From the NCBI RefSeq assembly GCF_016820245.1, contig NZ_JAFCAR010000008.1, positions 1 through 33,076 of the forward strand: a stretch of DNA of 33,076 bases. The letters run 5' to 3'. Under the pieces are notes generated by a model, which worked only from the letters and a program-made list of their open reading frames with translations, was not told where the DNA came from and made no database searches. The stretch's first letter is position 1; the number at the start of each line of letters is the position of its first letter. The translations under genes were made by a program, and so were the position numbers. This document shows positions 15,117 through 30,429 of this stretch, in pieces. This DNA is from Jannaschia sp. Os4. Lineage in GTDB: Bacteria > Pseudomonadota > Alphaproteobacteria > Rhodobacterales > Rhodobacteraceae.

Positions 15117-16154
15117 TCAGAGCCGGTGGTCGTAAGGTGATGGTACGAAGGCGAAGCTGCCCGTCCCCGCAACGCGTGCGACGAAGCCCACGCCTGGAAA
15201 CGGGTTGTGCATCCCCGCCACGCGGAGGCGGCCCGCCGCTGCCTCGTCCATGATCGCCACGCGCGTGCGCGCCGCCTGCGTGGCGTCGATGTCGAAGGCC
15301 ACGCCGAGGTCGGTGCGCGGGAACTGGACGGCGGGGACGTGCACCACGTCGCCCCAGACGAGAAGCCCCTCCGGTCCGGTCCCGATCGCATAGCCGCTGT
15401 GCCCCGGCGTGTGACCGGTCAGCGCGCGCAGCGTGACGCCCTCCGCGACCGAGGCTCCATCGGCGAAGGCGCGGATACGATCCGGACCGAAGACGGCCAG
15501 CACACGCTGGTTCTGCTCGTAGCCCTCCGCCCCCGCCTCGCGGGCCTCAGCGCTCCGCCAGAAGGCCAGATCCACTTCGCTCAGAACGAGGTTAGCGTTC
15601 GGGAAGGCGCGCGCGCCGCCCGCGGTGAGCGCGCCGCCGACATGGTCGGGATGCATGTGCGTCGCGAGCAGGGAGTCGATGGAGCCGGGGTCGATGCCGA
15701 GCACGCGCAGCGTGTCGGGCAGCCGCCCGAGGCTCGGGACGCCTTCGAGCGCCCCGCCCGCGTCGATCAGGAGCCGCCGTCCGGGCAGATCGACGAGATA
15801 GGCGTTCACCGAGCCAACATAGTCGTCCATGTCGAGGAACGCCGCCTCGAAGAGCGGACGCAGCTCCTCGGGCGAGGCGCCCTGGACGATCTCCGGATCG
15901 CTCGGGAAGTAGCCGTCAGACAGCGCGGTGACGATCGCGTCGCCCGCGCGGAACCGCTGCGCGCCGACGATCCGTGCGATGCCGCTCCCGTCCTGCGCGG
16001 CGGCGGCACCGACCGACCACGGCGTCTGGGGCAGGAGTGCGGCCAAGGTCAGCGCGCCGCCCGCCGCGATGAGGCTCCGCCTTCGGATCGGGCCGGTCCT
16101 CGCGGACTGCGCGAGGCTCGAACGGCTACGGCCGCATTCGTCGTCCTCGTTCAT
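15117..16154 (-). CDS. Tat-exported metallo-beta-lactamase-fold hydrolase
   Basis: A 345-residue protein. The leader is GPIRRRSLIAAGGALTLAAL with an AAAAQ cleavage site near residue 54. The metal-binding motif THMHPDH is at 165-171, followed by the expected downstream ligands in GHTPGHSGY, VWGDVVH and MHNPFPGVG. This is the glyoxalase II/lactonase-like branch of the MBL superfamily, whose members open lactones, thioesters or other esters using two metal ions. The ATG at 16154 has a good Shine-Dalgarno, AGGGAGAG. In the probable operon it lies immediately upstream of paoABC, so a role on a lactone or ester in the same exported pathway is plausible; specificity is unknown. Confidence 0.9.
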   Translation of the reverse strand: MNEDDECGRSRSSLAQSARTGPIRRRSLIAAGGALTLAALLPQTPWSVGAAAAQDGSGIARIVGAQRFRAGDAIVTALSDGYFPSDPEIVQGASPEELRPLFEAAFLDMDDYVGSVNAYLVDLPGRRLLIDAGGALEGVPSLGRLPDTLRVLGIDPGSIDSLLATHMHPDHVGGALTAGGARAFPNANLVLSEVDLAFWRSAEAREAGAEGYEQNQRVLAVFGPDRIRAFADGASVAEGVTLRALTGHTPGHSGYAIGTGPEGLLVWGDVVHVPAVQFPRTDLGVAFDIDATQAARTRVAIMDEAAAGRLRVAGMHNPFPGVGFVARVAGTGSFAFVPSPYDHRL

Positions 16155-16242
16155 CTCGTCTCTCCCTGGTTCGGGCCCTGACTCGGGGCGATGCCGGCCC
16201 CCCGCGCGGGTGGCGGGGGCCGAGGGGATCGCGGTCGTGGGT

Positions 16243-17406
16243 CTAGGTCGCGTCCGGCGCCTCGACGTCGGACCATTCCGCCACCATGGGCGGCGCGCGC
16301 TCGCCCTGCACCTCGATCGCGTCGAGCGCCGCGGTCAGTTCGGCCAGTTCGCCTTCGGTGAACGTGACCTGAGCGGCCGCGATGTTGTCGCGCAGATGCG
16401 GCAGCTGTGTCGTCCCGGGGATCGGCACGATGCTATCCCCCTGGGCTAGGAGCCAGGCGAGCGCGATCTCCCCGGGCTTGGCGTCCTTGCGCGCGCCCCA
16501 TTCGCGGGCGAGGTCCACGATGGCCATGTTCGCCGCGCGGTTGCCGCCCCCGTCCTCGCCGACATCCATGCGGGACGTGTTCGCGCGGAAGTCGCCCGGC
16601 GCGAAGCTCGTCGCCATGTCGATGGCCCCGGTCAGGAACCCGTAGCCCAAGGGCGCGAAGGGCACGAAGCCGATGCCGAGTTCCCGCGTGATCGGGATGA
16701 TGTCGTCCTCGCGCCCGCGCCAGAGCATCGAGTACTCGGACTGGACGGCGGCCAAGGGCAGCAGCTCATGCGCCCGGCGCAGCGTGGCGGGGCCGCATTC
16801 CGACAGGCCCCAATGCAGCGCCTTGCCCTCGTCCATGAGGTCCGAGACAACGCCCGCCACGTCCTCGATCGGCACGTCGGGGTCGACGCGGTGCTGGTAG
16901 AGCAGGTCCACCCGGTCCGTGCCGAGCCGGCGGAGCGACCCCTCGACGGCGGCGCGGATGTGTTCGGGGCGGCTGTTGAGACCGCCGTCCCAGGCGCCCG
17001 TCTCGAGATCGATGTCGTAGCCGAACTTGGTGACGACCTGCACATCGTCGCGAAAGGGCGCCATCGCCTCGCCCAGGATCTCCTCGTTGAGGAACGGCCC
17101 GTAGACCTCGGCGCAGTCGAAGAAGGTTACGCCCTCCTCGTAGGCCGTGCGGATCAGCGCGATCACGTCGTCACGGTGCGGCACGATGGTGTGGAACGTC
17201 CGGTGCATGTTCTGCACGCCGAGGCCCAGTTCGGAGGTCTCCAGCCCGCCCAGCATCCGGCGGCCCGGCGCGGGGGCGGAGGCGGCCTGCTGCGCGGCGG
17301 CCCCGCCGGCGCCGAGGGCGAGCGCGGCGGCCGTCAGCGGCACGCCGGCTAGGAGGCCCCGGCGGAGCGGGTCGATCTCGTGGTCGTTGTCTTGTTCGTC
17401 GGTCAT
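16243..17406 (-). CDS. Tat-exported aldo/keto reductase (paralogue of the one at 29290)
   Basis: A 387-residue AKR. Starting at 17406 (Shine-Dalgarno GGGGAGA) gives the leader [20 protein letters not shown] ending AAAQQ, a Tat-type signal, although the position two residues before the RR is proline-leucine rather than S/T-R. The barrel has the AKR tetrad Asp97 and Tyr102 ([10 protein letters not shown]), Lys127 (VVTKFGY) and His172 (LYQHRVDP). [15 protein letters not shown] and [16 protein letters not shown] are family signatures, and the SIVPIPGTT region should hold the nucleotide. AKRs normally use NADP(H) in the cytosol, so export is notable. It closely resembles the AKR at 29290, including the C-terminal [13 protein letters not shown]. 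Gap of 88 bp to the MBL gene. Confidence 0.9.
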
Positions 17407-29267: not shown

Positions 29268-29289
29268 CCTCACCAAACGGAGTTCGACG

Positions 29290-30429
29290 ATGACCGACAC
29301 ACCCACCTCCCCCACCCGCCGCGGTCTCCTAACCAGCGCGGCCGTCGCCGCGACCGCCGTCGCCGCGGGCGCCTTCGCCCCCGGCACGGCCCGCGCGCAA
29401 TCGACGGCAGCCGCCCCCGGCCGTCGGATGCTCGGGGGCCTCGAGACCTCCGCCATCGGGATGGGCGTGCAGAACGTCCACCGCACCTTCACCTCGCTGA
29501 TCCCCGAACGCGCGGACATGGTCGCCCTCCTCCGGGCCGCCCACGAGGAGGAAGGCGTCGACTTCTTCGATTGCGCCGAGTTCTACGGGCCCTTCGCGGC
29601 GGAGGAGATCCTCGCCGAGGCCATCGCGCCCTTCCGCGACGAGGTGCAGATCACCACGAAGTTCGGCTTCGATGTCGATCCCGAGACGGGCGCGTTCGGC
29701 GGCGGCGTCAATAGCCGCCCCGACCACGTGCGCCGGGCCGTCGAGGGCTCGCTCCGGCGGCTGGGGACGGATCGCATAGATCTGCTGTACCAGCACCGCG
29801 TCGACCCGCAGGTGCCGATCGCCGAGGTGGCAGGCGTCGTGGGCGAGATGATCGACGAGGGAAAGGTGCTGCACTGGGGTCTGAGCGAACCGGGCCTGGA
29901 CACGCTGCGCCGCGCCCATGCCGAGCGCCCCTTGGCCGCGGTCCAGAACGAGTACTCTGTCCTCTTCCGCGGCTTCGAGGCGGATGTGCTGCCGCTGACG
30001 CGCGAGTTGGGCATCGGCTTCGTTCCCTATGCGCCTTTGGGCTACGGCTTCATGACCGGTGCCATCGACATGAACACGCAGTTCGTTCCATCGGACTACC
30101 GCGCCAACACCGCCCGCATGGAGCCTGCGAACCGCGAGCCGAACCTGCGGCTGGTGCAGGTCGCGCGCGATTGGGCGGAGCGGAAGGGTGCGACGCCGGG
30201 CCAGGTCTCCCTGGCCTACCTCATGGCGCAGCGCGACGACCTGATCCCAATCCCCGGCACGACGAACCTCCAGCACATGCGCGAGAACGCCCGCGCGGCG
30301 CAGGTGACGCTGACGCCGGACGAGCTTGCTGAGATGACGGCGGCCCTCGACGCCATCGAGGTGCAGGGCGAACGCGCGCCGCCGCCCGTGCAGGAGTGGA
30401 ACGGCGCAGAGGCGCCAGACGCGACCTGA
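29290..30429 (+). CDS. Tat-exported aldo/keto reductase (paralogue of the one at 16243)
   Basis: A 379-residue AKR. Leader TSPTRRGLLTSAAVAATAVA then APGTARAQ with cleavage near residue 37. Tetrad: Asp94 and Tyr99 (FFDCAEFYGP), Lys124 (ITTKFGF), His169 (LYQHRVDP). [20 protein letters not shown] and LIPIPGTTNLQHMRENARAA are family signatures. It closely matches the AKR at 16243, with the same block [21 protein letters not shown] and a nearly identical end EVQGERAPP, so one locus probably arose from the other; the leaders differ more than the barrels. Start fixed by leader; 22 bp after the SMP-30 stop. A strong GC hairpin follows the stop. Confidence 0.92.
   Translation: MTDTPTSPTRRGLLTSAAVAATAVAAGAFAPGTARAQSTAAAPGRRMLGGLETSAIGMGVQNVHRTFTSLIPERADMVALLRAAHEEEGVDFFDCAEFYGPFAAEEILAEAIAPFRDEVQITTKFGFDVDPETGAFGGGVNSRPDHVRRAVEGSLRRLGTDRIDLLYQHRVDPQVPIAEVAGVVGEMIDEGKVLHWGLSEPGLDTLRRAHAERPLAAVQNEYSVLFRGFEADVLPLTRELGIGFVPYAPLGYGFMTGAIDMNTQFVPSDYRANTARMEPANREPNLRLVQVARDWAERKGATPGQVSLAYLMAQRDDLIPIPGTTNLQHMRENARAAQVTLTPDELAEMTAALDAIEVQGERAPPPVQEWNGAEAPDAT

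Follow-up and report, generated by a model that had tools for sequence, protein, structure and literature searches.

Genes of the window

The stretch of DNA analysed here (the window) is one complete contig of 33,076 bases from Jannaschia sp. Os4, whose genome comprises 3.54 Mb in 10 contigs. We describe a group of its genes encoding three short-chain dehydrogenases/reductases (SDR-A, SDR-B and SDR-C) and two aldo/keto reductases (AKR1 and AKR2) with N-terminal leaders of the twin-arginine translocation (Tat) type, together with their neighbours, among them a PaoABC-like set, an MBL-fold hydrolase and an SMP-30-like protein. All open reading frames named in an earlier note on this DNA were found approximately where it had placed them, and Pfam and NCBIfam matches agree with its family assignments. 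The genes are as follows.

11034..13343, minus strand: PaoC-like molybdenum subunit, leaderless (NF041671, 532 bits against a cut-off of 1180)
13347..14348, minus strand: PaoB-like FAD subunit, leaderless (top NCBIfam model TIGR03195, 150 bits, under its cut-off)
14352..15050, minus strand: PaoA-like 2x[2Fe-2S] subunit, Tat-type leader SRRGLLK (PF01799, PF00111; NF008514, 183 bits against a cut-off of 322)
15117..16154, minus strand: MBL-fold hydrolase, AidB-lactonase-like, weak Tat-type leader RRRSLI (PF00753; NF047979, 176 bits against a cut-off of 360)
16243..17406, minus strand: AKR1, aldo/keto reductase, Tat-type leader LRRGLLA (PF00248; start inferred from start codons)
17456..18412, minus strand: alpha/beta hydrolase, leaderless (PF02129, 24.7 bits; orthologues in loci L010 and L012)
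18434..19126, minus strand: SDR without leader (PF00106)
19126..20241, minus strand: AKR without leader (PF00248)
20330-21265, minus strand: AraC-type regulator gene
21241-22143, minus strand: AraC-type regulator gene
22718-23674, plus strand: AraC-type regulator gene
24016-24795, minus strand: AraC-type regulator gene (all four assigned by eye; no family search made)
25164..26120, plus strand: SDR-A, Tat-type leader TRRGLLG, insert absent (PF13561; orthologues 70-72% identical)
26176..27096, plus strand: SDR-B, Tat-type leader TRRAMLA, mycofactocin-type NAD-burying insert (TIGR03971, 232 bits against a cut-off of 300)
27286..28227, plus strand: SDR-C, Tat-type leader TRRTLLA, mycofactocin-type NAD-burying insert (TIGR03971, 240 bits; PDB 3t7c and others; structure model)
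28347..29267, plus strand: SMP-30/gluconolactonase-like protein, Sec-type N-terminus if the GTG start at 28347 is used (PF08450)
29290..30429, plus strand: AKR2, Tat-type leader TRRGLLT (NCBIfam AKR matches; PF00248 in the genome search)
30501..31670, plus strand: histidine-phosphatase-like and SnoaL-like fusion, Sec-like start by eye (PF07366, PF00300)

Outside this block, window 2281-2868 encodes an L,D-transpeptidase (PF03734), the leader of which is Tat-like (QRREFLT), and 7430-9241 a cyclic-nucleotide-binding domain fused to a thioredoxin-reductase-like flavoprotein. The contig opens with a run of 34 C residues (1-34), probably an assembly artefact. A plasmid origin for the contig was considered and set aside: no overlap of its termini was detected, and its two ends are occupied by a YchF-like gene and by a fragment of an IS3-type transposase, both identified by eye.

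N-terminal leaders of the Tat type

Seven proteins of the window (PaoA, the MBL-fold hydrolase, AKR1, AKR2 and the three SDRs) have an N-terminal RR motif followed by an uncharged h-region and an AxA site, in the hydrolase in weaker form; the earlier note had read RR-type Tat leaders on the same seven, and that reading is borne out. The true start of AKR1 is probably 17406 or 17421, rather than 17568. The genome encodes TatC (217 bits). The SMP-30-like protein had been described as secreted and lactonase-like; given the GTG start, its N-terminus would be hydrophobic and Sec-like, as claimed, but its likeness to gluconolactonases is weak, the best match so named scoring 50 bits.

We then took a census of the genome (PF13561 and PF00248 at 1e-10), in which every N-terminus of the 43 SDRs and 8 AKRs was read (n=51). 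A motif rule flagged eight SDRs and two AKRs, and four of these SDRs were discarded as false by eye because the RR lies within the first Rossmann strand (three; for example GRRAVVTGG) or just upstream of it (one). Of the six retained, five are in the window (SDR-A, SDR-B, SDR-C, AKR1 and AKR2), and the sixth is an SDR on another contig, C3. The window has seven SDR/AKR genes in total; after the by-eye sorting, the hypergeometric P for five of the six falling among them is ~5e-5, and clustering of leadered genes in 33 kb by chance is unlikely.

Leaders were also read by eye in homologues from other genomes. They are present in SDR-C at 6/6 loci, in SDR-B at 2/2, in the third type of SDR represented on C3 at 3/3, and in 12/12 full or near-full SDR-A genes, a count that excludes two SDR-A fragments lacking an N-terminus (L016, L102). 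SDR-A paralogues at 46-47% identity (L103-L105) are leadered too. With a stricter rule, 20 of the 23 leadered SDR homologues passed, as against none of 25 control SDRs, for which we picked the starts ourselves; of the three failures, L019_C had the core regular expression matched within its leader; the other two, L016_C and L016_A2, lack the AxA site.

These counts bear on the explanation that the leaders are mis-called, the true starts lying downstream and the proteins being cytosolic. The Pfam TAT_signal model fits that view, with matches at two places genome-wide and none in the window, and because of its silence there the case for Tat depends on the motif and its conservation. Against mis-calling stand the purine-rich stretches upstream of the leadered starts of SDR-A, SDR-B, SDR-C and AKR2, the retention of RR, h-region and AxA among homologues although leader sequence drifts, and the performance of the stricter rule. 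We consider mis-calling very improbable and, judged by conservation, the Tat leaders are likely to be genuine.

SDR-B and SDR-C resemble mycofactocin-coupled SDRs

Mycofactocin-type SDRs have an extra loop that buries a non-exchangeable NAD, as set out with their structures in the available part of PMC5264612. According to PMC3023750, members of TIGR03971 are confined to genomes with mycofactocin genes, and Haft proposed there that these SDRs depend on mycofactocin. By their sequences, SDR-B and SDR-C belong to a sister group of these enzymes. TIGR03971 is the top family for 11/11 scored leadered SDRs with the loop (227-273 bits), none of which reaches the cut-off, whereas leaderless loop-SDRs score 309-349 bits in 6/6 cases, one truncated by a contig end (L025) being left out. 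The segment between TG and D that bears the insert has 66 residues in SDR-B and 64 in SDR-C. Across the 48 aligned rows, it has 64-66 residues in 11/11 leadered SDR-B, SDR-C and third-type rows and 64 in 6/6 mycofactocin-type rows, as against 49-58 in the remaining 31. In an alignment of 14 SDRs, no variation occurs at the Ser, Tyr and Lys residues or at the Asp after beta-2; the roles of these residues are taken from PMC3023750.

A structure model of SDR-C (pLDDT 85.9) gave a similar picture. In Foldseek, ranks 1-23 are all mycobacterial SDRs, and the titles of 11 entries describe them as NAD-bound. With VIA, 242-264 residues were aligned to the top six structures, all mycobacterial, compared with 230-255 for ranks 10-50. 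Since SDR-B and SDR-C both carry the NAD-burying insert, a bound cofactor, as the earlier note had supposed for all these enzymes, is plausible for these two; SDR-A and the AKRs show no known cofactor-locking feature, and cofactor retention by them is an assumption.

Among proteins of solved structure, those nearest to SDR-C and SDR-A bear the names carveol dehydrogenase, isopiperitenol dehydrogenase and levodione reductase. These names hint at cyclic secondary alcohols or ketones as substrates; nothing indicates a sugar, and the sugar-to-lactone-to-acid pathway put forward in the earlier note is not supported.

Leaders and mycofactocin across genomes

An alignment of SDR-C was used in a single scan of 84,980 species, which returned 30 loci. 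The five more than 50% identical to SDR-C (from a Pleurocapsa metagenome-assembled genome (MAG), Cribrihabitans marinus, two Rhodobacteraceae and a gammaproteobacterial MAG) are all leadered. Six others at 35-42% identity, from five Acidimicrobiales or Acidimicrobiaceae and one Amycolatopsis, have the insert and, by eye, no leader. The remaining 19 are more distant SDRs, 17 of which served as tree outgroup (L039 and L045 did not). In addition, a profile search of the class with three SDRs at 1e-65 matched 2 of 385 genomes, the window's own and L015, which has a leaderless SDR of mycofactocin type. L015 lies outside the 48-row tree and inside the MftC and TIGR03971 counts; L025 is inside the tree and the MftC count.

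MftC exceeded its cut-off in none of the eight genomes that have leadered loop-SDRs (best score 109 bits), three of the eight being MAGs of unstated completeness, and in all seven tested genomes whose loop-SDRs are leaderless (565-661 bits), namely the six from the scan and L015, from the window's class. In the window's genome the best match scored 48 bits against a cut-off of 265; no search for other mycofactocin genes was made. Within this sample leader and mycofactocin are mutually exclusive, and TIGR03971 scores split along the same line. Because MftC was not found over cut-off, mycofactocin itself was rejected as redox partner of the leadered SDRs, and the partner is presumably another molecule.

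On the 48-row SDR tree, three changes are required to explain which proteins are leadered, which suggests that leaders were probably acquired repeatedly in linked genes. The SDR-A clade is supported at 100/99, the third type at 100/100 and SDR-B plus SDR-C at 93/89 (not starred); the drawn root is arbitrary, and the program warned that the third type may be misplaced beside long generic branches. Columns were kept at a 50% filling limit, meant to exclude leader columns (23 of the 48 rows are leadered), and L101_A was trimmed to its first 200 residues, near which its frame departs from SDR.

Distribution and neighbours of the SDR block

The SDR block is sparse among relatives, and for this reason it probably moves between genomes. 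Among 100 sampled genomes of the family, SDR-C at 1e-40 matched the window's own genome only; across 390 genomes of the order, SDR-C at 1e-45 gave five matches and SDR-A at 1e-50 six, own genome included in both. Plasmids gave no match to SDR-A at 1e-50 or to SDR-C at 1e-40. Two further genomes of the family have broken-looking SDR-A genes (L101 8954-10126, with a transposase-like gene near it, and L102 9689-10221).

Where it occurs, the core of the block is conserved. SDR-A and SDR-C are no more than 2.5 kb apart at 6/6 loci, one of which is on a 5.6-kb contig only. Cribrihabitans marinus DSM 29340, for example, has SDR-A, SDR-C and SMP-30. SDR-C is adjoined by the SMP-30 gene at 4/6 (one partial), and an alpha/beta hydrolase is found at 5/6 (one partial), an AraC-type regulator at 5/6 and a Tat-AKR at 3/6. 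The SnoaL protein is present in 5/5 relatives, one of which was the source of the query, with a Sec-like start by eye, and some of the alpha/beta hydrolase orthologues within the block also have a Sec-like start. The wider cluster fares differently: PaoABC and the MBL-fold hydrolase accompany the SDR block in 0/5 relatives, of which one is the 5.6-kb contig and the others were read for at most ~10 kb per side. PaoABC, not seen in these relatives, was discarded as a core component of the block.

The third type of loop-SDR merits mention in its own right. It lies on contig C3 of the same genome (L004 6002-9767) near an AKR and a LysR-type gene, and has leadered orthologues in L012 and L013. Near it, L004 6002-7177 encodes a paralogue, 69% identical, of the phosphatase-like/SnoaL-like fusion at window 30501-31670, and this fusion is found repeatedly in the vicinity of genes for Tat-SDRs or Tat-AKRs (L004, L101).

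One interpretation of the neighbourhood is a catabolic route in which a sugar, alcohol or aldehyde is converted to a lactone and then an acid by SDR/AKR, SMP-30 and PaoABC in sequence. The position of SMP-30 beside SDR-C is in keeping with such a route, as is the window-like order AKR-SDR-AKR-PaoABC in Rhizobium sp. T1473. We nevertheless regard it as unlikely, given that PaoABC and the hydrolase were not found in the stretches read in the five relatives, that SMP-30 is only weakly like gluconolactonases and that the nearest solved SDRs act, by name, on cyclic alcohols or ketones.

Tat-leadered AKRs on plasmids

Searching plasmids with AKR2 gave 311 records at 1e-50 and 40 at 1e-90. We read 17 loci from the 311, a non-random sample that includes near-duplicates and from which none was dropped. 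At 48-58% identity to AKR2, 14 of the 17 AKRs are leadered, one Streptomyces and one Hymenobacter among them, and three, at 50-53%, are leaderless. By sequence, the window's Tat-AKRs are members of a wide family. A flavodoxin lies nearby at 7/14 leadered loci and 0/3 leaderless ones, and six of the seven flavodoxins have an RR leader by eye.

The neighbours of these AKRs vary. In L089 and L091 (E. coli and Pantoea plasmids), L107 and L117-L119, the Tat-AKR adjoins a flavodoxin with its own RR leader; L089 and L091 additionally have a heavy-metal-type two-component system, a cupin, a carboxymuconolactone decarboxylase and an MFS transporter, and sets of this type may be exported redox or stress cassettes. 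ApbE is encoded near two Tat-AKRs (L109, L110) with a small SGT/SST-motif protein, possibly a flavinylated carrier; its assignment as an FMN-binding protein was dropped, as the L109 copy has no Pfam match. PaoABC occurs near one Tat-AKR, that of Rhizobium sp. T1473, where the gene order resembles the window. A PaoA-like sequence also adjoins a leaderless AKR (L114), which weakens the link between PaoABC and Tat-AKRs. On a Hymenobacter plasmid (L111), the Tat-AKR has an MBL-fold hydrolase and two NTF2-family genes in its vicinity, an arrangement reminiscent of the MBL-AKR pair of the window; the window's hydrolase gave no tblastn match to L111.

Such neighbourhoods raise the possibility of periplasmic stress defence, in which reactive carbonyls, quinones or other electrophiles would be reduced or dismutated by the exported AKRs and SDRs, the cluster being an inducible detoxification island and not a catabolic pathway. 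The two enterobacterial plasmids, with their two-component system, efflux transporter, cupin, decarboxylase and flavodoxin (and a nitroreductase in one), fit this idea, as do ApbE and the small protein at two further loci, the AraC- or LysR-type regulators that often adjoin, and the broad aldehyde oxidation by E. coli PaoABC described in the available text of PMC4273604. However, the window's SDR block is without those stress genes, and the scheme would demand a source of reducing power outside the cytoplasm. We hold stress defence to be possible, though short of probable.

A proposed role for captive NAD(P)

The explanation we favour, with some reserve, is that the window encodes an exported nicotinoprotein module that runs on captive NAD(P), its partner being either a second substrate or a redox protein of the periplasm. 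Judging from the leaders and their conservation, the oxidoreductases would fold and load their nicotinamide cofactor in the cytoplasm before export by Tat. The insert of SDR-B and SDR-C is predicted to cover the adenosine half of NAD and, because it is retained, NAD should exit with these enzymes and remain bound outside, by homology with the solved relatives in which NAD is present. One substrate would reduce the captive NAD and a second substrate or redox protein re-oxidise it, so that no NAD pool would be needed. The nicotinamide-side lid of SDR-B and SDR-C, at 36-38 residues, is 9 to 12 residues shorter than in mycofactocin SDRs (47-48), and for this reason their nicotinamide may be more accessible to a partner. 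Candidate partners include another substrate, by direct hydride transfer as in the glucose-fructose oxidoreductase (GFOR) of Zymomonas, which binds NADP tightly, or a flavoenzyme or molybdoenzyme of the periplasm. Processing of substrates or products would fall to the secreted proteins, namely SMP-30, the alpha/beta hydrolase and SnoaL.

Several points weigh against this proposal. Besides the silent TAT_signal model, the sub-cut-off TIGR03971 scores and the MAGs among the MftC-negative genomes, the shortened lid could also loosen NAD, and the VIA Z scores of the mycobacterial structures (33.3-35.0) are barely above those of ordinary SDRs (up to 32.8). SDR-A and the AKRs lack the NAD-burying insert, and no electron carrier is conserved inside the SDR block. 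A related concern is that the leaders are genuine, yet the enzymes shed NAD(P) outside, with loss of redox function or use of cofactor from lysed cells. The ordinary family appearance of SDR-A and the AKRs would allow this, but catalytic residues, insert and leaders are all kept across distant loci, and we think it improbable.

The captive-cofactor proposal can be extended, more speculatively, to bacteria that lack mycofactocin. These might possess a separate extracytoplasmic nicotinamide pool, in which Tat-exported SDRs and AKRs with captive NAD(P) swap hydride with each other's substrates, or else with flavodoxin or molybdo-flavoenzymes that are likewise exported. The leader would then replace mycofactocin as the means of isolation from the NADH pool, and would have been gained more than once by SDR clades of one neighbourhood. 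This extension is a tentative one, and on balance we do not expect it to hold.

If the captive-cofactor proposal is correct, a sister group with the NAD-locking loop, an export tag and no mycofactocin maturase would limit Haft's rule of mycofactocin dependence, and the question arises whether the loop serves to hold NAD through and after Tat export. It would also provide a natural means of NAD chemistry outside the cytoplasm, with redox enzymes working beyond the membrane without a cofactor pool, and would help to account for Tat leaders on enzymes of the AKR family, usually considered cytosolic. The earlier note knew of no description of this combination; likewise, we found no account of SDRs or AKRs that Tat exports with NAD(P) in place among the open-access matches listed, subscription journals being mostly uncovered, and the words short-chain, aldo and keto are absent from the available part of a P. 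aeruginosa Tat-substrate paper (PMC6085387).

Comparison with known systems

Zymomonas GFOR and the Caulobacter aldose-aldose oxidoreductase (AAOR) are Tat-leadered oxidoreductases, and the Caulobacter enzyme is active without added cofactor (PMC4628093, in the portion available). The window's enzymes share the leader but not the fold: GFOR and AAOR belong to the unrelated Gfo/Idh/MocA fold, whereas the candidates here match the SDR and AKR families of Pfam.

E. coli PaoABC is exported by Tat as a complex (PMC4273604). The window's set resembles it in having the leader confined to the Fe-S subunit, leaderless FAD and molybdenum subunits, the order A-B-C and an XdhC-type gene nearby. It differs in that PaoA and PaoC score below their equivalog cut-offs and PaoB has another family as its top model.

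The plasmid Tat-AKR cassettes of Klebsiella, E. coli, Pantoea, Rhizobium and Sinorhizobium are like the window in their leadered AKR and, in several cases, an alpha/beta hydrolase; unlike it, they frequently have flavodoxin, cupin or carboxymuconolactone decarboxylase genes and no SDR-A or SDR-C matches.

The mycofactocin-coupled SDRs (TIGR03971; PDB 3S55, 3PGX and 3T7C) are both the top family and the top solved matches of SDR-B and SDR-C. The two groups differ in the Tat leaders, the MftC-free genomes, the sub-cut-off scores and the shorter nicotinamide-side lid of the window's enzymes, and are alike in the length of the adenosine-side insert, the catalytic residues and the Asp after beta-2. 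What appears to be new is a set of mycofactocin-type nicotinoproteins that are export-tagged and mycofactocin-free.

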